A stretch of 64,000 nucleotides of DNA, from contig NZ_JABXKH010000161.1 in the NCBI RefSeq assembly GCF_017115105.1, forward strand, positions 1 to 64,000, given 5' to 3'. The notes beneath the pieces are model-generated. The model did not search any database. It had not been told where the DNA came from and worked only from the letters and a program-made list of their open reading frames with translations. This document shows positions 11,650-24,434 of the stretch, piece after piece. Source of the DNA: Nostoc sp. NMS2. GTDB taxonomy: Bacteria; Cyanobacteriota; Cyanobacteriia; Cyanobacteriales; Nostocaceae. Numbering within the stretch: the stretch's first letter is position 1; each line of letters opens with the position of its first letter. The position numbers and the translations under genes are program-made.

Positions 11650-14600
11650 ATGTTTGTTGACTTCTTTATTAAGCGACCAATCTTTGCGTCGGTCTGTGCA
11701 ATCATTATCCTTTTAATAGGATTAATCAGTATTCCCACATTACCGATCGCTAGATTCCCAGAAATTAGTCCCACGCAAATCAGTGTAACTTCCAACTATA
11801 GCGGAGCTAGTGCAGAAGTCGTAGAAAGCGGAGTTACAAATATCTTAGAAAGGCAAATCAACGGGGTTGAGGGACTAAGATATCTCACTTCCAGCAGCAG
11901 TAACGATGGTACTAGTACTATTACAGCCACCTTTGATTCATCACGAGATAAAGATATTGCGGCTGTGGATGTGCAAAATCGTGTTTCTGTTGCCCAACCA
12001 CAACTACCGGATTCTGTACAACGCACAGGTATACGGGTATCGAAAGAGTCTAGCAACATTCTCTTGGCGATTGGTTTATACGCTGAAAATAAAGAGTACG
12101 ACAATATATTCTTAAGCAACTATGCCGACCTTTACTTAGCAGATGCCTTAAAAAGAGTCAAAGGCGTGAGCAACGCTCAAATTTTTGGTGAACGCCGCTA
12201 TGCAATGCGCCTGTGGTTAGATCCGAGTCGTCTTGCCAATCGGGGGCTAACAACTAAGGATGTAGCGAATGCTTTATCTGAACAAAACTTGCAAGTTGGT
12301 GCAGGGAGAATTGGACAAGAACCGGCTCCTGAAGGACAAAGGTATCAACTTGATGTGCGTGCTGCTAGCCGATTAGCAGAACCAGGAGAATTTGAAGAAA
12401 TTGTCCTCAAAACTGGAGATGATGGCACATTAGTCAAGCTCAAAGATGTTGGTAGAGCAGAACTGGGTGCAGAAAACTACAGTTCATTTCTGCGATTTCG
12501 TGGTAACGATGCTGTTGGTTTAGGGATTTATCAGGTTCCTGGTAGTAATGCCTTGGATGTGGCTAAGGGAGTCAAAGCCGAACTAGCGCGATTAGCTCCG
12601 AGTTTTCCCCCAGGGCTGAAATATCAGGTAGCTTTTGACACGACATCCTTTGTCGAAGAGTCGATGTCAGAAGTCATCAAGACTCTGATTGAAGCGGTAG
12701 TGCTAGTTGTGATTGTGATTTTTGTGTTCTTGCAGGATTGGCGAACCACTTTAATTCCTGCACTAACCATTCCGCTTTCCTTAATTGGGACATTTGCCTT
12801 TGTCAAACTTTTTAACTTTTCGATCAATAGTTTGACTTTATTTGGTCTGACTTTAGCATCGGGGATGGTGGTAGACGATGCGATCGTTGTGGTAGAGCAA
12901 ATCAGCCGTTTTATTCAGGATAAAGGCATAAATCCTCGCCGAGCCGCTAGTGAATCAATGGCGGAATTGTTTGGCGCGGTTATTGCCACTTCACTAGTGT
13001 TGATGGCGGTGTTTGTGCCAGTGGCATTTTTTCCGGGAACCACAGGCGCACTTTATCGGCAATTTGCCCTGACGATCGCTTTCTCCATTGCGATTTCAAC
13101 TTTTTTGGCTTTGACTTTGACACCTTCCTTGTGTGCGCTGCTACTGCGTCAAGGGCAAAAACCTTCAGGCTGGCTGGGTTGGATTTTTGGCAAGATAAAT
13201 CGCTTTCTTGACTGGGTACAGAATGGTTATAAGCGATCGCTTACCTTTCTCACAGGCATCAAAGGTATTGTGATTGGGTTGTTTATCGTTTCCTTGGGAA
13301 TGACTGCTTGGCTGTACACCACAGTCCCAACAGCTTTTCTACCCGATGAAGACGAGGGGTATTTTATCACAATTATCCAAGGGCCGCAAGGGGTTTCGCT
13401 GCAATATACCAGCGATGTGATTGCACAGGTAGAAAAAGAAATTCTCCAAATTCCAGAAGTATTGGGGACTTTTGCGATCGGAGGGTTTGGTTTTAGTGGT
13501 AACACAGCTAACAGTGGCATCATATTTACAACTTTAAAATCTTGGGACGAGCGCTCAAAACCAGATCAATCAGTACAGGCGATTATTGGCAGCTTGCAAG
13601 GGAAGTTGTTGGCAATCCCAGAAGCCAGGGTTTTTCCTGTGAATCCGCCAGCAATTCAGGGTTTAGGCAACTTTGGCGGCTTCGTCTTTCAACTGCAAGA
13701 CCGCAGAGGTAACAGTGGTTTAGAAAATCTGGTGCAGTCGATGGGTCAGTTGCTGGGTAAAGCTAATCAAACACCAGGATTACAAGCTGTATTTAGCACC
13801 TTTGCCGCAGATACACCACAATTGCTTGTGGAAGTAAACCGCAATAGAGCCAAATCATTGCAAGTTTCTATAGATGATGTCTTCAGTACTTTACAAACTG
13901 CTTTGGGATCGCAATATGTAAATGATTTCAATCTCCAGCAGCGCAATTACCGAGTATATATCCAGGCTGATCAACAGTTTCGTTCTAATCCCAAAGATAT
14001 TGGCAAACTATACGTTCGTTCTCAAAAGAATCAAATGGTTCCTTTGAGTAACTTAGTCACAGTTACTCAGACTGTGGGAGCGCAAACGATAAATCACTAC
14101 AATCTGTTCCGCTCAATTGAAATTAATGGTTCCGCCGCTCCTGGCTCTAGTTCGGGAGACGCAATTAAAGCAATGGAAAAAGTTGCTAAAGAAGTTTTAC
14201 CAGCCGGTTATGGTTACGAATGGTCAGGGACTGCATTAGAAGAAATAGATTCTGGTGGTTTAGCACCCCTAATCTTTGGATTAGGAATAATCTTCGTATT
14301 CTTGGTACTAGCCGCTCAATACGAGAACTACATCGACCCCTTTATTATTTTGTTATCAGTTCCCTTAGCTATCTTTGGAGCGCTTATAGCTCAATCAATG
14401 CGGGGTTTTGCCAATGATGTTTACTGTCAAATTGGTCTAGTAATGTTGATCGGTTTAGCTAGTAAGAACGCGATTTTGATTGTGGAATTTGCTAATCAAT
14501 TACGAGAGCAAGGGCTTTCGATTACTAAAGCAGTAATTGAGGCTTCACAAGAGCGGTTACGTCCAATTTTGATGACTGCTTTTTCTACACTCTTGGGGAT

Positions 14601-14841
14601 TTTTCCGTTAGCTGTTGCCACAGGTGCCGGTGCGGGTAGTCGGCAATCTTTGGGAACAGCAGTATTTGGTGGGATGTTAATTGCGACTTTCTTGAGTTTG
14701 TTTGTAGTACCAATTTTGTATATCGTGCTTAAGACGACAACAGAGCGCTTTATCAAACCAAATCGGCATCAAGGACTGCAAACAGATGCAGTTTCATTGG
14801 ATGGTAAAACTACTGCGTATGCAACAAAAGGCGAGAATTAA
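11650..14841 (+). CDS. RND multidrug efflux permease (AcrB/HAE1 family)
   Basis: Inner-membrane proton-driven efflux pump of about 1063 aa, with the family's two repeated halves of six helices and two large periplasmic loops each. It starts MFVDFFIKRPIFASVCAIIILLIG, the usual HAE1 start. The proton-relay pair is present in GMVVDDAIVVVE (helix 4) and the second-half helices end with GLASKNAILIVEFANQL. Together with the preceding adaptor it should form a tripartite pump with an outer-membrane channel encoded elsewhere. The local TetR gene is broken, so the pump may have lost its repressor. The substrate is unknown. Confidence 0.95.
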   Translation: MFVDFFIKRPIFASVCAIIILLIGLISIPTLPIARFPEISPTQISVTSNYSGASAEVVESGVTNILERQINGVEGLRYLTSSSSNDGTSTITATFDSSRDKDIAAVDVQNRVSVAQPQLPDSVQRTGIRVSKESSNILLAIGLYAENKEYDNIFLSNYADLYLADALKRVKGVSNAQIFGERRYAMRLWLDPSRLANRGLTTKDVANALSEQNLQVGAGRIGQEPAPEGQRYQLDVRAASRLAEPGEFEEIVLKTGDDGTLVKLKDVGRAELGAENYSSFLRFRGNDAVGLGIYQVPGSNALDVAKGVKAELARLAPSFPPGLKYQVAFDTTSFVEESMSEVIKTLIEAVVLVVIVIFVFLQDWRTTLIPALTIPLSLIGTFAFVKLFNFSINSLTLFGLTLASGMVVDDAIVVVEQISRFIQDKGINPRRAASESMAELFGAVIATSLVLMAVFVPVAFFPGTTGALYRQFALTIAFSIAISTFLALTLTPSLCALLLRQGQKPSGWLGWIFGKINRFLDWVQNGYKRSLTFLTGIKGIVIGLFIVSLGMTAWLYTTVPTAFLPDEDEGYFITIIQGPQGVSLQYTSDVIAQVEKEILQIPEVLGTFAIGGFGFSGNTANSGIIFTTLKSWDERSKPDQSVQAIIGSLQGKLLAIPEARVFPVNPPAIQGLGNFGGFVFQLQDRRGNSGLENLVQSMGQLLGKANQTPGLQAVFSTFAADTPQLLVEVNRNRAKSLQVSIDDVFSTLQTALGSQYVNDFNLQQRNYRVYIQADQQFRSNPKDIGKLYVRSQKNQMVPLSNLVTVTQTVGAQTINHYNLFRSIEINGSAAPGSSSGDAIKAMEKVAKEVLPAGYGYEWSGTALEEIDSGGLAPLIFGLGIIFVFLVLAAQYENYIDPFIILLSVPLAIFGALIAQSMRGFANDVYCQIGLVMLIGLASKNAILIVEFANQLREQGLSITKAVIEASQERLRPILMTAFSTLLGIFPLAVATGAGAGSRQSLGTAVFGGMLIATFLSLFVVPILYIVLKTTTERFIKPNRHQGLQTDAVSLDGKTTAYATKGEN

Positions 14842-15020: not shown

Positions 15021-16934
15021 TTATTTCAGCAATCTTAGACCACTGAGGGTAACTAATACTGTCGAGCCTTCATGCCCAATCACGCCAATCGGTAAGTTAA
15101 TACTTCCGAGAAAGTTAGCTACTAAAAGCAACATAATGAAACTCAACGCTACGACTATATTCTGTTTGACTATGGATTGCGATCGCCTCCCCAAATGTAT
15201 CGCCACGGCAATTTTTTCTAACTTGTCTGCCATCAGTACTATATCTGCGGTTTCTAATGCCACATCACTACCAGATATTCCCATCGCTATACCTACAGAT
15301 GCTTGGGCTAAAGCTGGTGCATCATTAATTCCATCGCCCACCATTGCCACAGTTTGATACTTTTGCTGTAGAAGGCGGATAACATCTAGCTTATCTTCTG
15401 GTAGAAGTTGAGCATATACCCCATCGATTCCGACTGCTTTGGCGACACTTTGAGCAGTTTCTTCATTATCCCCGGTTAACATGACAATTTGCTCAATTCC
15501 CAGTTTCCTTAAGCGGATAACGGTTGCGGCTGCTTGCGATCTTACTTCATCTGCGATCGCAATTACACCCATCACCCCTGCTATATTTCCTTGTGCTACC
15601 CAAACCACAGTTTTACCTTCTTGCTCCAAAGATTGAGCCATTTCTCGCAACTTTTCAGGTAAATTTGTCACATACTGCTGCACAAAAACGGCATTTCCCA
15701 CGATTACCTGTTGTTCTTGAGCAATTCCCACAATTCCCTGTCCAGGTATAGCTTGCACTTGGATTGCACCAACCAAATCCAAATCGCCAGCCGCCTCTAC
15801 AATTGCCTTACCGATGGGATGTTCTGAATAAGATTCCACACTAGCGGCGGCTTTTAATACATCAAGTTGAGTGTATTCACTAACTGAAATTACTTGGAAT
15901 ACTTGCAACTGCCCTGTTGTCAGAGTACCAGTTTTATCAAATGCGATCGCACGGACTTTGCCAATTTTCTCCAACTGCGCTCCATTTTTAAACAAAATCC
16001 CCTGTCTTGCACCATTGGCGATTCCCGAAAGCAGGGTGGGCATAATTGCAGCCATCAGCGCACAGGGAGAAGCAACCACTAGGAAAGTCAGCGCCCGATA
16101 AATTGTTGTTTCCCAATCCCAACCCCAAAGAAACGGCGGTAAAGTTGCCAGCAATATCCCGGCTACTACAATGACTTTGGCATATCCCTTCTCAAAGCGA
16201 TCGATAAACTCTTGGGAAGGTGGTGCTTCTGTCTGTGCTTGTTCTACCAAACGAATCACACGCTGAATCAAACTACTTTGGGCTGGTTTGTGTACCTTAA
16301 TCTGCAATGCACCATAGCCGTTGAGTGTACCAGCAAATACTTCTTCGCCCACCGTTTTCTCTATAGGTAAAGACTCGCCTGTAATCGCAGCTTGATTGAG
16401 GGTGCTGTAACCAGATAAAATTATCCCATCAGTAGGAATTAGCTCTCCAGGTTTGACGACAATCTCATCACCCACTTTTAATTGACTGATAGGAATCTCT
16501 TCTTCTCTTCCCTGAAGTAAAACCCTTGCTGTATCTGGTGTCAAACTCATCAAACTGCGGATACTGCGCTCAGTTCGCGCCATTGCATAGCCTTCTAATG
16601 CGCCACTGATAGCGAAAATCAGAATCAAAATTGCCCCATCAATAATTAGATGATATTCTCGTCGCCATAAGCCGAGGCTAGCAGCACCAATCGCTGCCAC
16701 AATCATCAGCAAATCTACATCGAGTTCTTTTTCTTTGAAAAGGGTAGTTAATCCTTCCCGCGCACTTTCGTAACCACCAATCACGTAAGCAGCCGGTAGC
16801 AGTAGCAACGCCAATCCTAACCAACCGAGATGCAAGGCGAACCATCCGAGAAATAGCAGTAACCCACATAAAAGGGCTGCTACGGTATCTGTGTGTTCTC
16901 TGGTGAATTGACTGAAACGTTGGGGGTAGAGCAT
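15021..16934 (-). CDS. coaT: P1B-4 type heavy-metal ATPase, probable cobalt exporter
   Basis: Inner-membrane metal-exporting P-type ATPase of 637 aa. TGES (about residue 184), DKTGT phosphorylation site (about 331) and the HP motif SEHPIGKA are all present. The membrane metal site has SPC (about 288) in place of CPC, and the last helix pair has HEGST (about 620); together these define the P1B-4 subgroup (CoaT, CzcP, PfeT). There is no N-terminal HMA or His-rich metal domain, as usual for that group. A perfect MerR-type operator lies 33 bp upstream of the start, and a CoaR-type regulator gene is nearby on the other strand, so cobalt is the best substrate guess; iron or zinc remains possible. 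Confidence 0.88.
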   Translation of the reverse strand: MLYPQRFSQFTREHTDTVAALLCGLLLFLGWFALHLGWLGLALLLLPAAYVIGGYESAREGLTTLFKEKELDVDLLMIVAAIGAASLGLWRREYHLIIDGAILILIFAISGALEGYAMARTERSIRSLMSLTPDTARVLLQGREEEIPISQLKVGDEIVVKPGELIPTDGIILSGYSTLNQAAITGESLPIEKTVGEEVFAGTLNGYGALQIKVHKPAQSSLIQRVIRLVEQAQTEAPPSQEFIDRFEKGYAKVIVVAGILLATLPPFLWGWDWETTIYRALTFLVVASPCALMAAIMPTLLSGIANGARQGILFKNGAQLEKIGKVRAIAFDKTGTLTTGQLQVFQVISVSEYTQLDVLKAAASVESYSEHPIGKAIVEAAGDLDLVGAIQVQAIPGQGIVGIAQEQQVIVGNAVFVQQYVTNLPEKLREMAQSLEQEGKTVVWVAQGNIAGVMGVIAIADEVRSQAAATVIRLRKLGIEQIVMLTGDNEETAQSVAKAVGIDGVYAQLLPEDKLDVIRLLQQKYQTVAMVGDGINDAPALAQASVGIAMGISGSDVALETADIVLMADKLEKIAVAIHLGRRSQSIVKQNIVVALSFIMLLLVANFLGSINLPIGVIGHEGSTVLVTLSGLRLLK

Positions 16935-16966
16935 GAGAGGTGAATTTATAGTGACTCTCTCAGGCT

Positions 16967-16998
16967 AAACCTTGACATTAATGTTAATGTCAAGGTTT
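16967..16998. promoter_or_regulatory. MerR/CoaR-type operator-promoter
   Basis: The two 15-bp arms AAACCTTGACATTAA (16967-16981) and TTAATGTCAAGGTTT (16984-16998) are perfect inverted complements around TG. Each arm contains a TTGACA -35 element. On the plus strand TTGACA (16972-16977) is followed after 20 bp by TATAAT (16998-17003). On the minus strand a 20-bp spacer leads to TAGCCT. Overlong 19-20 bp spacers spanned by a dyad are the hallmark of MerR-family activated promoters. The site can serve coaT leftwards and the ATPase/TOPRIM/coaR genes rightwards. Confidence 0.8.
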
Positions 16999-17156
16999 AT
17001 AATGATTTTGAAACGCAGAGGGGCGCTGAGGGAAGCGCGGAGGTACGCAGAGTTAAATCTTTATCTGTGTTCTTGAAGTGTTTTTCAAAAGCTGAATGTG
17101 GGTAAATGGGACGATTTAACTGTTACCTTTAAAATTGCACTAATAGGAAAAAATAT

Positions 17157-18278
17157 ATGCTAAAGCGAATATATATTGATAACTTTCGCGGGTTGGTAAA
17201 TTTTGAGATGAACTTTGATTCGATTAACCTCTTTCTTGGTGGTAATGGAGCAGGTAAATCAACAGTTTTTGAAGTTTTACGGAAAATTCAAATTTTTATA
17301 AGTGGTGACGAAAAAGTAGAACAAATTTTTAAATCTGCTGACTGTACTCGCTGGCAGACTTTACAGCTTCAGCGTTTTGAGCTAGAAATTGCTGGAAATG
17401 GTGGTAATTATAAATATGAATTTGCTATTAGACATAATCAAGATAAGATTCATGTTGAATATGAGCGTCTCTGGTTTAATAATCAAGTTTTACTTAAGTC
17501 TGAAGCTGGCGAAGTTCAACTTTTTAGCGATAATTATGAAGAGGTCGCAAAAGCTCCATTTCCTTCACCATCAGGATCTTTCCTATGGTTATTTACGGTA
17601 GATAGTGACAGTACAAAGCTGGACTGGTTCACAAAACGTATGCAGCGATTCATTATTGTACAAATTATTCCTAGCCTTATGCTTGATGGAAGTGAAAAGG
17701 AAGAAATTCATTTAACTTCGAGAATGGAAAACTTTGTTTCTTGGTATCGCTATATTTCGCAAGATCAGGGTAAAGTTGCTGAACTTATCAACGTTTTAAA
17801 AGATATTTTAAATGGGTTTTTAAGTTTTAAATTTGAACAGTTCAGTGAAAATTATCGGACTCTAAAATTAAGATTTTTAACTGATAAAGATAGGACAAAG
17901 ATTATTGATTATCGCTTTAGTGAATTATCCGATGGTCAAAAAGTGATAATTGCTCTTTACACCATTCTCTATTGCACTGAATCTGAAGATTATACACTTT
18001 GTATTGATGAACCAGAAAGTTTTTTAGCTCTGCCGGAAATTCAACCTTGGCTAATTCAACTTTATGATTTCTGTATTGATGGGAAAATACAAGCTTTACT
18101 AATCTCCCATCATCCTGTACTAATAAATTATCTTTTAGCTTCACCTATAGGTTATTGGTTTGAGCGTCAAAGTAATGCACCTGTACGAGTAAAACCAATT
18201 AGTAATCAAGAAGCTGAAAATTCAGGATTACCAATTTCAGAACTGATTGCACGGGGCTGGCTGTATGACCCAGAATAG
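17157..18278 (+). CDS. OLD-like/AAA-type ABC ATPase, putative defence ATPase
   Basis: A 373-aa soluble ATPase of the RecF/SMC/OLD-like ABC class. It starts IYIDNFRGL, typical of these proteins, then Walker A GGNGAGKST (28-36), a long variable middle, an ABC signature-like LSDGQK (about 256-261), Walker B LCIDEPES (about 281-288) and a switch histidine in ISHHP (about 316-320). It ends by overlapping the next gene by 14 bp, so the two are surely co-translated. Such ATPases paired with TOPRIM nucleases occur in anti-phage systems (OLD, Gabija, PARIS, AbiL), but I cannot place this one in a named system. It separates coaT from coaR and lies 158 bp from the MerR operator. Confidence 0.8.
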   Translation: MLKRIYIDNFRGLVNFEMNFDSINLFLGGNGAGKSTVFEVLRKIQIFISGDEKVEQIFKSADCTRWQTLQLQRFELEIAGNGGNYKYEFAIRHNQDKIHVEYERLWFNNQVLLKSEAGEVQLFSDNYEEVAKAPFPSPSGSFLWLFTVDSDSTKLDWFTKRMQRFIIVQIIPSLMLDGSEKEEIHLTSRMENFVSWYRYISQDQGKVAELINVLKDILNGFLSFKFEQFSENYRTLKLRFLTDKDRTKIIDYRFSELSDGQKVIIALYTILYCTESEDYTLCIDEPESFLALPEIQPWLIQLYDFCIDGKIQALLISHHPVLINYLLASPIGYWFERQSNAPVRVKPISNQEAENSGLPISELIARGWLYDPE

Positions 18279-18837
18279 AGTACAGATAGTAATTTTGTGT
18301 GAGGATCTACAACAGCAAGTTTTTGCATATCATTTTTTAAAAAAGCGAGGCTTTAATATAAATCCAAAAAACGTCACAATTAGGACTTCCCCAACAGGTA
18401 AAGGTGCAGGAGAGCAGTTCGTTAGAAAGCATTATGCAGCAGAGGTTAAAGAATACCGACGAAAAAACTATCGCTCAGGAATGCTAATAGTGTTGATTGA
18501 TGCAGATACTTCAACAGTAAAGGCAACACTGAAAGAATTAGATAATGCACTGATAGAAAATTCACAGGAACTTCGTAAGCCTGATGAGAAAATAGCAATC
18601 TTTGTGCCAAAAAGAAATATCGAAACTTGGATACATTATTTACGAACAGGAGAAGTTGTAGAAGAAGAAGCAGAAAAATCCAAATATCCAAAATTCCCTA
18701 AAAATGAGGCAATTTGTAAACCCGGTGTTGAACAATTAGCAAACCAGTGTTCTCAAGGGAGTTTAGATGAAAATGCACCGCCATCTCTTCAGGCGGCTTG
18801 TGAAGAGTTACAAAGAATTTTGCCGTTGTTGGAGTAA
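18265..18837 (+). CDS. TOPRIM-like partner of the ATPase
   Basis: A 190-aa protein from the ATG at 18265; a TTG at 18247 would add six residues. A hydrophobic strand leads to ILCED with Glu at 13, and a second strand ends in LIDAD with Asp at about 79 and 81. Glu plus DxD after beta strands is the TOPRIM metal-binding pattern, as in OLD, DUF4276 and RloB nucleases. A third segment, FVPKRNIETWIHYL, resembles the conserved helix after the TOPRIM core in DUF4276-like proteins. It overlaps the ATPase by 14 bp and its last codons carry the ribosome-binding site (GGAG) of coaR. The fold assignment is inference from motifs; nuclease activity is not shown. Confidence 0.65.
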   Translation: MTQNRVQIVILCEDLQQQVFAYHFLKKRGFNINPKNVTIRTSPTGKGAGEQFVRKHYAAEVKEYRRKNYRSGMLIVLIDADTSTVKATLKELDNALIENSQELRKPDEKIAIFVPKRNIETWIHYLRTGEVVEEEAEKSKYPKFPKNEAICKPGVEQLANQCSQGSLDENAPPSLQAACEELQRILPLLE

Positions 18838-18840
18838 ATC

Positions 18841-19965
18841 ATGAACGCTGGTTGCTTAACTATTAAAGAACTTACCGATGCAGTCGGCGGCGGTTTAACT
18901 CCGCGAATGGTGCGACATTACCATCAATTGGGGCTGCTACCGCAACCAGTGCGATCGCACAGCAATTACCGTCTCTACACTAAAAAAGATGTCCTGCGGT
19001 TGCAAAGGATTGTTGCACTGAAGCAGCAAGGGTTTCAGCTAAACCATATCCGCAATATTTTGGAGGTGGAACCAGAAGCCGATACAACTATTAACCTGAT
19101 GGGACAACTCCAGCAGCAATATCGGGCGGTGATGCAACAAATTTCGCAACTGCGGCAAACTGCATCAGCATTAGAAGGATTATTGGGGCGCGATCGCCAT
19201 TGTCAAATTATCCAGGCGGAAGTTTTGGCACAACTCAAGTTACTTGATGTCGAAACCCAAGCCGGATTGGGGGGATTGGAAAATCTCTGGAGTGGTTTGG
19301 ATGCCGAAATTCATACCCACTCGGAAGCTTTTTCTGAATCGTTACAACGTTTACTACCTGATTTGTCTCACCGTTCGGAAATTGAACAGCACTTAATTTC
19401 TCAGTTGGTTTTGGCTTGTGGCGATGTCAGTTTAGTGTCCTTTGTGAAATTGAGCCAAGATGCGATCGCAGCTAGTCGAGAAGCCTTATCTTCAAGCTGT
19501 CAAATCGTTGTTGATACCCAAACTGTTGCTGCTGCTTTGGATCAAACCCGATTACTTCACTTGGGATGCCACATTGAAACCTTGATTGATAATCCCCACA
19601 TTACTACCGCCACAGAAGCAGAACTCGCTTTTTGGCAACATCGAGAATGGCGAGATAAATTGCAGCAAGTCAGTCAGGGTTGCGTGTTGGTAGTTGGTTA
19701 TGCTCCCTCAGTACTTGTAGAAATTTGTGAAGCGATCGCCAAGCAAAAAATTCAGCCAGCATTAGTAATCGGAATGCCCATTGGCTTTAGTCATGCTCCC
19801 GCAGCCAAGCGACAACTGATGCAACAAGGGATACCTTTTATTACAGTTGCAGGAACTTTGGGAGGTGGTGCTTTAGCTGCTACTGCCCTAAATGCTTTGG
19901 TGGAGTCGCTGATTGATAAGCCAGATTGTCATTGTTATCTCAAAAATATAAGCGATAAGTCATGA
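18841..19965 (+). CDS. coaR: MerR-family cobalt-responsive regulator with precorrin-isomerase-like domain
   Basis: A 374-aa regulator. Residues 1-75 form a MerR winged HTH (MVRHYHQLGLLP, SNYRLYTKKDVLRLQRI), followed by the dimerisation helix and then a C-terminal domain resembling CbiC/CobH precorrin-8X methylmutase (LVVGYAPSVLVEICE, VIGMPIGFSHAPAAKRQLM). It ends with a Cys-His-Cys motif (DCHCY, about 362-366), which is a known effector-binding feature of Synechocystis CoaR. It should activate coaT through the operator at 16967-16998. In the described Synechocystis arrangement coaR and coaT are divergent neighbours; here two foreign-looking genes lie between them. It starts 4 bp after the TOPRIM stop with GGAG as the ribosome-binding site. 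Confidence 0.88.
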   Translation: MNAGCLTIKELTDAVGGGLTPRMVRHYHQLGLLPQPVRSHSNYRLYTKKDVLRLQRIVALKQQGFQLNHIRNILEVEPEADTTINLMGQLQQQYRAVMQQISQLRQTASALEGLLGRDRHCQIIQAEVLAQLKLLDVETQAGLGGLENLWSGLDAEIHTHSEAFSESLQRLLPDLSHRSEIEQHLISQLVLACGDVSLVSFVKLSQDAIAASREALSSSCQIVVDTQTVAAALDQTRLLHLGCHIETLIDNPHITTATEAELAFWQHREWRDKLQQVSQGCVLVVGYAPSVLVEICEAIAKQKIQPALVIGMPIGFSHAPAAKRQLMQQGIPFITVAGTLGGGALAATALNALVESLIDKPDCHCYLKNISDKS

Positions 19966-20417: not shown

Positions 20418-23400
20418 ATGTGGCAACAAGAAAAAAAAGATACTTCGATAATCAGGCTGATACTATGGGTTGCTTTAGCTACAACTCCTATGGCAGCAGG
20501 TTTGCTGGTGTCAGAACCCATACTGGCGCAATCTAAAACTGAGTCTCCTTCTTTTACACTGCCGCAAACAGTGCAGAATGGAACGACAATTCGGATTGAT
20601 GGTTCAAGTGGCTTGAGTGCAATCAACCAAAGCCTGAAAGAGAATTTTGAAAAACAGTTTTCGGGTAGTAAAGTTGAAGTTGCGGCTAATGGCACTGATA
20701 CAGCACTGAAAGATTTGCTCGATGGCAAAATCGACATCGTAGCAATGGGGCGTGGGTTGACACCAGCAGAAAAAGCCCAAGGACTAGAGCAAGTCCGCTT
20801 GCACCGTGAGAAGATTGCGATCGTGGTCAGCGCAGATAATCCTTTCAAAGGAAGCTTGACTAGTAAGCAATTTGCCCGAATTTTCCGAGGACAAATTACA
20901 AATTGGTCACAACTGGGAGGGCCTCCAAGAAAGATTCGGTTAATCGATCACCCGAACACAAGTGAGACTCGCAATACTTTTCGCACTTATCCAGCCTTCA
21001 AGACTGCTGAATTTGCTACAGGGTCTAATGCCACCCAACTAACTGAGGATAATACCGCAGAAATCATCAAACAACTGGGTAAAGATGGCATTAGCTATGT
21101 GTTAGCTAATCAGGTGTCGAAGCTGCAAAATGTGCGAGTTCTGCAATTACATCAAGCCTCGCCAGATGATGCAAAATATCCCTTCTCGCAACCTTTAGTT
21201 TACGTCTACAAAAAAAATCCCAGCTTAAGCATAGTAGATTTTCTTGGCTTTACCCTTGCACCCGCAGGACAGCAGGCTATAGAACAAGCGAGAACAGCTG
21301 AAGCAACTGCGATCGCAACCAACGTATCACAACCTATTGTCTCCCCTTCCCCCATTGCCGAAACAACACCTGCTGTTACAGCTTCCCCTAGTACTTCTGC
21401 ATTTGGCGAACAGCCTTTTGTCGCTCCTGCCACCGCACAAAAAAGTCCAATTGTCAACAAAGAAGTACCATTTTGGGTACTGCTACCTTTGTTCTTTGTT
21501 AGTATAATTGCAGCGTTGACCTGGTGGACTCTCGGTAAAAAACCATCATCCACTGATAAAACAGACAACTTACCAGAATCCAATCCTTATCCACCCGGTA
21601 CAGAAGATGGAGAGACAGCAGTACTTAATGCCAGTACAGCTGCCTCCATTAACGGAACGATACTTGAAGAGCAGCCAGTTCCACACTTCCAAGAGCAAGA
21701 AACCCCCGATCGCACTTCTTTCAATATCTATGCTCAAACCCAATCTGAACTGGCTGAAAATGGTACTCATGGCACATCCAATTTAGTCCAAGAGGCAACT
21801 AATGGCACTTCTAACCTCTATGAAGGCACAACCTCTACTGTCACCAATGGATCGGGAGCCGCAGCTTTAACTGGTGGTGCGGCTTTAGCAACAGGCATCG
21901 GAGCGGCTACCTGGTCTACCTTTAACAATAAAGGAACAGGAGCAAACGCAATCGATGAGACGGTCGAGCTAAATAATTATACTGAGACAAACACATCCGA
22001 CTCTGATGAGGTTGCATGGGACATAGAAGCCCCAGCAGCTGTAGTAAATACTCCATATCCTCACTTGGGTAATCTTCCCGAAGAAATATCTTCTGATGGA
22101 GAACTGCCTTTATCTGAGGTAACAGCCCCACTGCCAGAATTACCAGATGTGCCAGAAGTAACATCTGATTTGGAATATTGGGACACAGAAATTGCTGAAG
22201 ATGAAATAGATGAGGAACTTCAAGCAGAATTGAACTGGCTACAGAGTATCACCTCAACTGAAGATACAGCTTCAGTTGATGAATTGCCCTTACCAGACTC
22301 TGGCGAAGTGGAACCTTCACCGTCACCAACATCTTCACTGCTCAATTTGCCAGAATTGCCAGATGTAGATGTATTCAATGTGGTAGCGGATGCAGCCGAA
22401 CCTCCTATCGAGGTGGTAGGCGAAGAATCTCAGACAGAGCCAACTGTTGGTGAAGGTGCTGCTGAAAATGACTCCATAGATTTTGCAGGCGTTGCGGCTT
22501 TAGCAGCAGGCGCAGGGATTGGAGCCTGGGCGATTAATCTTGGATTGGATACTAAAGAAGAAACTAATACTACGGTTGACAATGTGCCAATTGCAGCCGA
22601 AACAGATATCCACTTGGTAGATGCAGATGAAGAAAGCAGTATTGTGCTAACACCACATACTTCTACATCAGCTAATGTCTCTTGGAAAATTTCTGAAACC
22701 AAGAAAGCAGAACTGTGGCAACAAGGCGGCTCTCATTTGGTAGTGCGGCTGTATGATGTGACTGGCATTGACTTGAGTTATCAAACTCCCCAGCTTATCC
22801 AGCAGTATGAATGTACAGAGACAGCACACGATCGCTTGGTAGAGATTCCCGTCAACGATCGCGACTACATAGCTGAAATTGGTTATATCGCTTATGGCGA
22901 GTACTGGTTATTTATCGCCCGTTCCGCAGTTGTTCGTGTCTTCAGTCCTGTGAATCCAGATCCCATAGTTGATCGTGTGGCGAACACAGCCGAAACAACT
23001 ATTGGTTTGGTAGATGCAGATGAAGAAAGCAGTATTGTCCTCACACCACATACTTCGACATCGGCTCATGTCTCTTGGGAAATTTCCGAAACCAAGAAAG
23101 CAGCACTGCGACAACAGGGCGGCTCTCAATTGATAGTGCGGCTCTATGATGTAACTGGGATTGACTTAAGCTATCAAATTCCCGAACTTGTAAAGCAGTA
23201 CGAATCTGAAGAGTCAGTAAACGACGGAATGGTGGATGTTCCCGTGAGCGATCGCGATTATATAGCCGAAATTGGTTATCTTGCTGATGGCGATGCCTAC
23301 GGCGGTGAACTACGCTGGTTATTCATCGCTCGTTCAGCAATTGTTCGTTTCTTCAGTCCTGTGCATCCAGATCCCATAGTTGATAACGTGGCGATTGCGG

Positions 23401-24434
23401 ATAAAACAAATATTCACTTGGGAGAAGCCCAAGAAGAAAGCAGTCTTATCCTCACACCTCGCACTTACCAATGGGCTGATGTCTCTTGGGAGATATCCGA
23501 AACCAAGAAAGCAGAACTGCAACAACAGGGCGGCTCTAAATTGGTAGTGCGGTTGTATGATGCAACTGGAATTGACTTGAGTTATCAACATCCTCAGTTT
23601 GTCCAGCAATATGAATGTGAAGAGACTGCAAACGATCGCTTTGTGGAAATTCCCATCAGCGATCGCGATTACATAGCCGAAATTGGCTATGTCGCTGATG
23701 GCGATGCCTACGGCGGTAAACTACGCTGGTTATTTATTGCCCGTTCTGCGATCGCTCATGTCTTCAGTCCGGTTCATCCAGATTCCACCGTTGAAAATGG
23801 AGCATTACCAAGCGAAAAAGCTTTTAACTTGGTAGACGTAGAAGTTAATAGCAGTGAAGAAGAAAGCAAAATCCTGCTCACACCCCGCACTCCCAAGTGG
23901 GCTTATGTCTCCTGGCACATTTCCCAGACTCAGAACAAAGCGCTGCAACAACAGGGCGGCTCACAATTGGTAGTGCGGCTTTACGATGTAACAGGGATTG
24001 ACTTGAGTTATCAAAGTCCCCAGCTTGTACAGCAGTATGAATGTGAAGAAGTAGCCCGCGATCGCTTTGTGGCGATTCCCGTGAGCGATCGTGACTATAT
24101 GGTTGAAATTGGTTATATAGCTGATAGCGATGCCTACGGCGGTAAACAACGTTGGTTACTCATCGCCCGTTCACCTAATGTTCGCATTTTCAATCGTTCC
24201 CACGAAGATTTTTGGTTTGTGGCAGATGCTGAGTTGATTATTCACGGAGCAACCCAACCAAATACAAGCGTAAACATTGCCGGACATCCCATCAAAATCA
24301 AACCCGATGGTACTTTCCACCTGCGTCTTCCCTTTTCAGATGGTTTAATGGACTATCTCATAACAGTAGCTGCTGACGGGGAATCCACTAGAACCATCCA
24401 TAAAAAGTTCTCTCAGGAAACTTCAGAAAGCTAG
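20418..24434 (+). CDS. Phosphate-binding-like domain fused to four DUF4912 repeats
   Basis: A 1338-aa protein. Residues 1-37 look like a signal/anchor. About 45-290 resembles a PstS-type substrate-binding domain (IRIDGSSGLSAINQSL, IVAMGRGLTPAEKA, ISYVLANQVSKLQ). A membrane helix follows at about 353-374, then an acidic Glu/Asp/Pro linker with two Ala/Gly hydrophobic segments. Four DUF4912 repeats lie at about 720-850, 851-986, 987-1123 and 1124-1262, each with VRLYDVTGIDLSYQ and DRDYIAEIGY blocks. A short beta-rich C-terminal domain closes it (1268-1335). The shape suggests an envelope protein joining ligand binding outside with DUF4912 modules on the other side, but the function is unknown. 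It ends with a good terminator. Confidence 0.8.
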   Translation: MWQQEKKDTSIIRLILWVALATTPMAAGLLVSEPILAQSKTESPSFTLPQTVQNGTTIRIDGSSGLSAINQSLKENFEKQFSGSKVEVAANGTDTALKDLLDGKIDIVAMGRGLTPAEKAQGLEQVRLHREKIAIVVSADNPFKGSLTSKQFARIFRGQITNWSQLGGPPRKIRLIDHPNTSETRNTFRTYPAFKTAEFATGSNATQLTEDNTAEIIKQLGKDGISYVLANQVSKLQNVRVLQLHQASPDDAKYPFSQPLVYVYKKNPSLSIVDFLGFTLAPAGQQAIEQARTAEATAIATNVSQPIVSPSPIAETTPAVTASPSTSAFGEQPFVAPATAQKSPIVNKEVPFWVLLPLFFVSIIAALTWWTLGKKPSSTDKTDNLPESNPYPPGTEDGETAVLNASTAASINGTILEEQPVPHFQEQETPDRTSFNIYAQTQSELAENGTHGTSNLVQEATNGTSNLYEGTTSTVTNGSGAAALTGGAALATGIGAATWSTFNNKGTGANAIDETVELNNYTETNTSDSDEVAWDIEAPAAVVNTPYPHLGNLPEEISSDGELPLSEVTAPLPELPDVPEVTSDLEYWDTEIAEDEIDEELQAELNWLQSITSTEDTASVDELPLPDSGEVEPSPSPTSSLLNLPELPDVDVFNVVADAAEPPIEVVGEESQTEPTVGEGAAENDSIDFAGVAALAAGAGIGAWAINLGLDTKEETNTTVDNVPIAAETDIHLVDADEESSIVLTPHTSTSANVSWKISETKKAELWQQGGSHLVVRLYDVTGIDLSYQTPQLIQQYECTETAHDRLVEIPVNDRDYIAEIGYIAYGEYWLFIARSAVVRVFSPVNPDPIVDRVANTAETTIGLVDADEESSIVLTPHTSTSAHVSWEISETKKAALRQQGGSQLIVRLYDVTGIDLSYQIPELVKQYESEESVNDGMVDVPVSDRDYIAEIGYLADGDAYGGELRWLFIARSAIVRFFSPVHPDPIVDNVAIADKTNIHLGEAQEESSLILTPRTYQWADVSWEISETKKAELQQQGGSKLVVRLYDATGIDLSYQHPQFVQQYECEETANDRFVEIPISDRDYIAEIGYVADGDAYGGKLRWLFIARSAIAHVFSPVHPDSTVENGALPSEKAFNLVDVEVNSSEEESKILLTPRTPKWAYVSWHISQTQNKALQQQGGSQLVVRLYDVTGIDLSYQSPQLVQQYECEEVARDRFVAIPVSDRDYMVEIGYIADSDAYGGKQRWLLIARSPNVRIFNRSHEDFWFVADAELIIHGATQPNTSVNIAGHPIKIKPDGTFHLRLPFSDGLMDYLITVAADGESTRTIHKKFSQETSES

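Follow-up and report, generated by a model that had tools for sequence, protein, structure and literature searches.

Modules that combine an ATPase with a TOPRIM protein are already known. In PARIS ('class 4 OLD'), AriA is the ATPase that detects a phage protein, and AriB the TOPRIM protein that cleaves tRNAs (PMC12409363, PMC9122126, PMC12839542); the published rule calls for an ATPase scoring at least 32 bits against AAA_15 or at least 27 bits against AAA_21, beside a partner scoring at least 27 bits against DUF4435 (PMC9122126). Here we analyse a gene pair in a 64,000-nucleotide (nt) stretch of Nostoc sp. NMS2 (contig NZ_JABXKH010000161.1, positions 1 to 64,000; hereafter the window) that encodes an ATPase and a small protein with a predicted TOPRIM-like fold. 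The pair looks like a relative of known phage-defence modules and is a candidate defence system. The reading we consider most likely, at somewhat better than even confidence, is that of a two-gene OLD-class immune module, in which a sensor ATPase would restrain a TOPRIM nuclease and infected cells would undergo growth arrest or death. New here is the place of the pair, in most of the Nostocaceae copies examined, between a coaT-like gene of cobalt-efflux type and its coaR-like regulator, in a slot that is otherwise empty or holds remnants or other cargo.

An earlier note on this DNA had proposed an ATPase/TOPRIM module overlapping by 14 bp, and had suggested structure prediction of the complex, profile searches and surveys of co-occurrence and of clustering with known defence genes as checks. 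Both open reading frames (ORFs) were confirmed at the positions claimed, the second running from an ATG at 18265 to a stop codon that ends at 18837, and the overlap is exact. The features are listed below; conservation refers to 31 aligned ATPases (window copy included) and to 30 aligned small proteins (the window copy and 29 relatives, identity down to 30%).

17157..18278, forward strand: OLD/Rad50-type ABC ATPase, 373 residues (aa), proposed sensor and regulator subunit
17238..17261, forward strand: Walker A, GGNGAGKS; G28, N30, G31, G33 and K34 invariant
17517..17606, forward strand: hypervariable ATPase segment, residues 121-150, by identity to relatives; candidate trigger-sensing region
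17925..17942, forward strand: ABC signature, LSDGQK; L257, S258 and G260 invariant
17997..18017, forward strand: Walker B, LCIDEPE; D284, E285 and P286 invariant
18105..18113, forward strand: switch region, SHH; S317 invariant, H318 and H319 at least 90% conserved
18249..18260, forward strand: C-terminal ARGW motif; R366 and W368 invariant
18265..18278, forward strand: 14-nt gene overlap, measured in the window
18265..18837, forward strand: predicted TOPRIM-fold protein, 190 aa, proposed nuclease effector (homologues, conserved acids, AlphaFold2 model)
18301..18303, forward strand: catalytic-type Glu13, in LCED (18295-18306); invariant
18499..18507, forward strand: DxD, Asp79 and Asp81, in IDAD (18496-18507); invariant
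18604..18630, forward strand: VPKRNIETW block with Glu120; P115, I119, E120 and W122 invariant

The frames are longer than chance would give: five mononucleotide shuffles of the window contained no stop-to-stop frame of at least 373 aa and one of at least 190 aa. Both genes are AT-rich, with GC contents of 34% (ATPase) and 37% (TOPRIM) vs 45% and 46% in the two flanking genes. The first protein has the Walker A, signature, Walker B and switch His of an OLD-type ABC ATPase, along with matches to AAA_21 and AAA_15, and every motif claimed for it has been located and is conserved across the aligned ATPases; its C-terminal ARGW motif may possibly contact the partner protein. At E ≤ 0.001, 627 of 703 candidate proteins proved to be homologues of the small protein, and the acids of the claimed Glu and DxD pattern (E13, D79 and D81) never vary in the alignment. 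A Pfam scan of the window's small protein returned no match at E ≤ 1, and sequence searches of solved structures, with the single protein or a profile, gave no credible match. The AlphaFold2 model (predicted local distance difference test [pLDDT] 87, predicted template modelling score [pTM] 0.86) most resembles the TOPRIM domains of OLD proteins, and so supports, as a prediction, the TOPRIM core that the earlier note had proposed; AriB and GajA are not among the best 50 structure matches listed, which says nothing against kinship. The protein thus has a TOPRIM-like predicted fold with an intact acidic active-site pattern.

A scan of species genomes yielded 62 loci, 37 of them cyanobacterial. 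The nearest named relatives belong to Nostoc. By record titles the family spans nine phyla, the 25 other loci including Chloroflexi, Desulfobacterales-type deltaproteobacteria, Planctomycetota, Acidobacteriota, Verrucomicrobia, Armatimonadetes-type bacteria, Poribacteria and Pseudomonadales. The ATPase gene lies directly upstream of the TOPRIM gene in 58 of the 62; the remaining four lack an upstream ATPase match, three of them (L032, L059 and L061) at or near contig ends and one (L041) with a truncated TOPRIM gene. Among the 58 paired loci, 30 have the identical 14-nt overlap, and in 23 the genes overlap by another short length or are 3 nt apart, with start codons chosen by script; a broken or cut frame precluded measurement in five. 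The two genes form one unit, and the co-occurrence survey bears out the association that the earlier note had proposed, its exceptions being contig ends or decay.

The distribution of the pair is patchy. Of 192 genomes of Nostocaceae, 29 carry the ATPase (E ≤ 1e-70) and 32 the TOPRIM protein (E ≤ 0.001), seven of the latter as remnants alone (G028, G037, G038, G101, G134, G190 and G191). All 25 genomes with a non-remnant TOPRIM gene also have the ATPase, and three of the 28 with a full-length ATPase (G094, G101 and G190) have no intact TOPRIM gene. This asymmetry of three ATPase-only genomes vs no genome with only an intact TOPRIM gene, small as the numbers are, points the way that restraint of the effector by the ATPase would predict. 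One such locus (L083, in G190), where a full-length ATPase is followed by a TOPRIM protein reduced to its final 40 residues, is an effector deletion that spared the ATPase. Calothrix sp. NIES-4105 has two copies of the pair at different places, one intact and the other broken (L030 and L050).

In the window, the pair is flanked by two genes that the earlier note did not mention and whose arrangement is that of coaT and coaR; the name coaT is inferred from its CoaR-like partner.

15021..16934, reverse strand: coaT-like heavy-metal P-type ATPase (TIGR01525, 6.5e-175), left border of the slot
16966..16999, no strand assigned: perfect 16-nt inverted repeat on the coaT side of the pair, upstream of coaT; predicted CoaR operator
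18841..19965, forward strand: CoaR-like regulator, MerR plus precorrin isomerase (CbiC, 2.8e-49; MerR_1, 4e-14), right border of the slot

This arrangement was examined in 20 genomes whose TOPRIM gene is more than a remnant, out of 25 such genomes (those left out are G115, G126, G138, G145 and G171), and in 14 the pair lies between coaT and coaR. It lies outside the slot in the other six (L070, L071, L076, L077, L080 and L081), two of which, L071 and L081, have it beside coaT only. In 11 of the 14 slot copies, no more than about 10 nt separate the end of the pair from coaR, and in L075 the distance is about 70 nt; another gene intervenes in L068 and L072. The inverted repeat, a degenerate form of which occurs in 58 of 175 loci, is the probable CoaR operator. 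Because of the short distance to coaR, and because the probable operator lies beyond the pair, the Nostocaceae pair is probably co-transcribed with coaR. The repeat is kept in loci with and without cargo.

The slot survey drew on 84 loci of the 192 genomes, with G128 represented twice and the window included. Setting aside seven without coaR in the stretch and 21 without coaT upstream (some at contig ends; the pair in none) left 56 loci with both borders. The full pair occupies 14 of these, two with extra cargo, a number that is not a frequency because the sampling favours pair carriers: 60 regions were taken from the better-scoring part of 146 coaR-positive genomes, and pair carriers were added on purpose. 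One locus holds the ATPase with a truncated TOPRIM gene, four hold a C-terminal TOPRIM remnant only (one with extra cargo), and 12 are empty, that is, with a gap of up to 320 nt (here 64-314 nt, one with an 85-aa ORF). The other 25 have a longer gap lacking the pair and were counted as other cargo, a class that includes one locus with no ORF of at least 60 aa (L130) and two with short ORFs only (L153 and L167).

Ten cargo ORFs from eight loci were scanned, and the rest were grouped by ORF length, some by their first residues. They include a fused cytosine methylase and EcoO109I-type restriction enzyme (L127, 6698-8860), a type IIG restriction-modification enzyme (L146, 3195-6227), a Uma2-type putative nuclease (L156), a PspA-like protein (L136), a DEDDh exonuclease (L145) and a gene set for HATPase-like, DUF4325 and 207-aa proteins (L125, 6974-8872) that, by ORF length, is also present in L126, L128 and L143 and partly in L121. 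A protein of about 514 aa recurs in the slot, in eight loci by ORF length (e.g. L072:8737-10278, L009:6740-8281 and L148:7302-8846); the one copy scanned had no Pfam or PADLOC match. Varied cargo, remnants and empty gaps together mark the coaT-coaR gap as a slot for variable insertions; restriction-modification is found there without being the rule. As side observations, the N-terminus of the ~514-aa protein looks like that of a membrane protein, and a 387-aa ORF fills the slot of L117 (2636-3796), without Pfam or PADLOC matches, with an ORF of equal length in the slot of L118. Near the slot in the window, translations read by eye indicate a resistance-nodulation-division (RND)-type efflux pump gene (11650-14841) and, at 20418-24434, a protein of 1338 aa whose N-terminus is phosphate-binding-like and which contains repeated segments. 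A short, GC-richer, repeat-like stretch at 17010-17050, 5' of the ATPase gene, presumably resembles the interspersed repeats of Nostoc.

Within the slot, the pair evolves differently from its surroundings. In several close relatives the pair differs strongly from that of the window, although coaR is 92-96% shared. ATPase residues 121-150 are 26-46% identical to the window in 11 of 13 relatives whose coaR is 85-96% identical, the exceptions being L002 and L005 at 80-83%. For L014, L015 and L069 compared with the window, synonymous divergence (dS) is 0.24-0.37 in the flanks, 0.59-0.80 in the TOPRIM gene and 1.1-1.4 over ATPase residues 121-180, where nonsynonymous divergence (dN) is 0.28-0.36. 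L003 and L004 are the reverse mosaic, with a TOPRIM dS (0.10-0.14) below that of the flanks (0.29-0.35) and an ATPase with a diverged middle and conserved ends. Protein trees of TOPRIM, ATPase and coaR from 14 genomes reject one another in approximately unbiased (AU) tests (p from 6.3e-6 down to 1e-60). Such a pattern is consistent with alleles being exchanged by recombination at a site that stays fixed, as would be expected of an immune sensor; it may instead reflect relaxed evolution plus transfer. We tentatively suggest, as a possibility that we hold with less than even confidence, that the coaT-coaR gap is a miniature immune slot with cassette-like allele exchange, in which the ATPase middle (residues ~60-300, above all 121-150) would be swapped while its ends and the flanks stay, giving an allelic trigger-recognition locus whose expression would be tied to the CoaR operon.

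These observations suggest a model for how the immune module may act. The ATPase would dimerise on ATP, hold the TOPRIM protein in check and sense a phage product through its fast-evolving middle segment. Upon this trigger it would release or activate the TOPRIM protein, a putative two-metal nuclease that would cut tRNA or DNA and so stop the infected cell. The analogy with AriB makes tRNA a somewhat likelier target than DNA.

Several results weigh against an immune module or limit the case for it. The margin of the TOPRIM fold assignment is modest, which slightly lowers our confidence. The dN/dS ratio of the pair overall (0.09-0.31, from a simple counting script) is well under 1, so positive selection is not supported. 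In the 62-locus set, L029 and L052 combine an intact TOPRIM frame with an ATPase gene that is frameshifted, making the direction of the asymmetry less clean, with the proviso that such frameshifted copies may in part be assembly errors. Outside the slot, the surroundings of the pair are mostly ordinary and not defence islands. Around the 25 non-cyanobacterial loci (all 124 ORFs of 150-1500 aa scanned; 158 from 100 aa up), PADLOC matches at E ≤ 1e-20 are scattered methylases, HmaC, SspH, DUF499, RT_UG29, RtcR-like and generic ATPase models. Around 25 cyanobacterial loci (129 of 158 ORFs of 150-1500 aa scanned; 192 from 100 aa up), mad3, 2OG, PD-T4-6 and the like are frequent among the matches listed (25 of 58 families), and look like broad ATPase, kinase or enzyme models; ten cyanobacterial neighbours identified by Pfam are ABC-F-like, SSB, methyltransferase, glycyl-tRNA synthetase, dehydrogenases, CbiX and similar. 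None of 81 pattern matches in viral contigs was confirmed, and plasmid and phage records gave no copies of the pair at the sensitivities used. Scans of the window for tRNA and Rfam families found none, so a tRNA-based integration site is not indicated. The interpretation in the earlier note is partly supported.

The alternative that survives best concerns the name and is compatible with defence: the pair may be a divergent branch of HEC-01, a catalogued PADLOC candidate and, on sequence profiles, the nearest named entry. We regard this as possible and still doubtful. HEC-01 was compared by PADLOC profile E-values. Like the present pair it has an ATPase and a partner of about 200 aa; a HEC-01A model matches the window ATPase nearly full length (8.9e-18, residues 2-359 of 373), and all 31 aligned ATPases hit six or more HEC-01A models apiece (E ≤ 1e-5). 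However, PDC-M25A, also a candidate, and AriA score ahead for the window ATPase (1.2e-23 and 6.2e-21), and ATPase models are promiscuous, with 113 PADLOC families matching this protein at E ≤ 1. The partner matches weakly: the HEC-01B model PDLC04205 is matched by 16 of the 30 small proteins at E ≤ 0.1 and the best value over all HEC-01B models is 5.5e-6, whereas the window protein (1.2e-4) covers only positions 31-114 of 197, under half of the profile.

It is unlikely that the pair is a toxin-antitoxin-like or DNA-maintenance module that lacks phage specificity and lies in a slot that simply tolerates insertions. Lineage-specific positions, C-terminal TOPRIM remnants that mark losses, the small excess of ATPase-only genomes and the possibly misassembled L029 and L052 would suit it; the rapid divergence of the ATPase middle and the exchange of alleles do not. 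The ATPase-only asymmetry, moreover, need not mean toxin-antitoxin, because in PARIS deletion of either gene is reported to be harmless and to abolish defence (PMC9122126). A link to metal or B12 is very improbable, in which the pair would share a transcript with coaR, have a role connected with cobalt efflux and act, for example, as a Co2+-responsive nuclease or regulator: the nesting in 14 of 56 resolvable slots and 14 of the 20 pairs examined, the position beside coaT in L071 and L081, the CbiX and tetrapyrrole methylase genes upstream of the pair in L023 (outside the slot) and the activity with Co2+ reported for AriB and OLD nucleases speak for it, but the slot is empty or otherwise filled in 37 of 56 loci, the other phyla and most other cyanobacterial loci of the 62-locus set have no coaR or coaT in the stretch examined, and pair alleles do not track coaR.

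The absence of a Pfam domain in the proposed effector and surroundings that are mostly not defence islands mean that neighbourhood-based discovery could miss the family. In cyanobacteria, its fixed and fast-changing allele locus allows a direct test of trigger recognition, because the flanks are near-identical and the sensor segments differ.

The earlier note had matched the pair to no named system, which holds for PARIS and less so for HEC-01, whose ATPase model fits well and whose partner model fits weakly and in part. Literature searches on HEC-01, DUF4276 with an ATPase, TOPRIM pairs, embedding-based discovery, coaR/coaT and cyanobacterial TOPRIM defence brought up no paper in which we recognised a description of the pair or of the coaT-coaR slot. 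Profile searches, one of the checks suggested, left the window's small protein without a Pfam match and gave isolated hits elsewhere among the 30: AbiLii matches one (6.2e-4) and RloB, weakly, one (0.019). AbiL is matched by its ATPase (AbiLi on the window ATPase, 6.5e-15) and not by the window's partner protein. PARIS was rejected: the window ATPase clears both limits of its rule (46.9 bits for AAA_15 and 63.4 for AAA_21), but the small protein lacks the required DUF4435, which is also not among the families listed for the 30 small proteins (25 of 26 families). In Septu and retron PtuA-PtuB modules the partner, PtuB, is an HNH nuclease, whereas here it is TOPRIM-like. The GajA model of Gabija matches the window ATPase (1.7e-9), but Gabija has an adjacent helicase gene where the neighbours here are a P-type ATPase and a regulator. 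OLD class 1 shares the ATPase and TOPRIM folds; in it, as in GajA, they form one polypeptide, in contrast to two here. In PARIS, AriA and AriB are encoded by separate adjacent genes, as are the two proteins of this pair.
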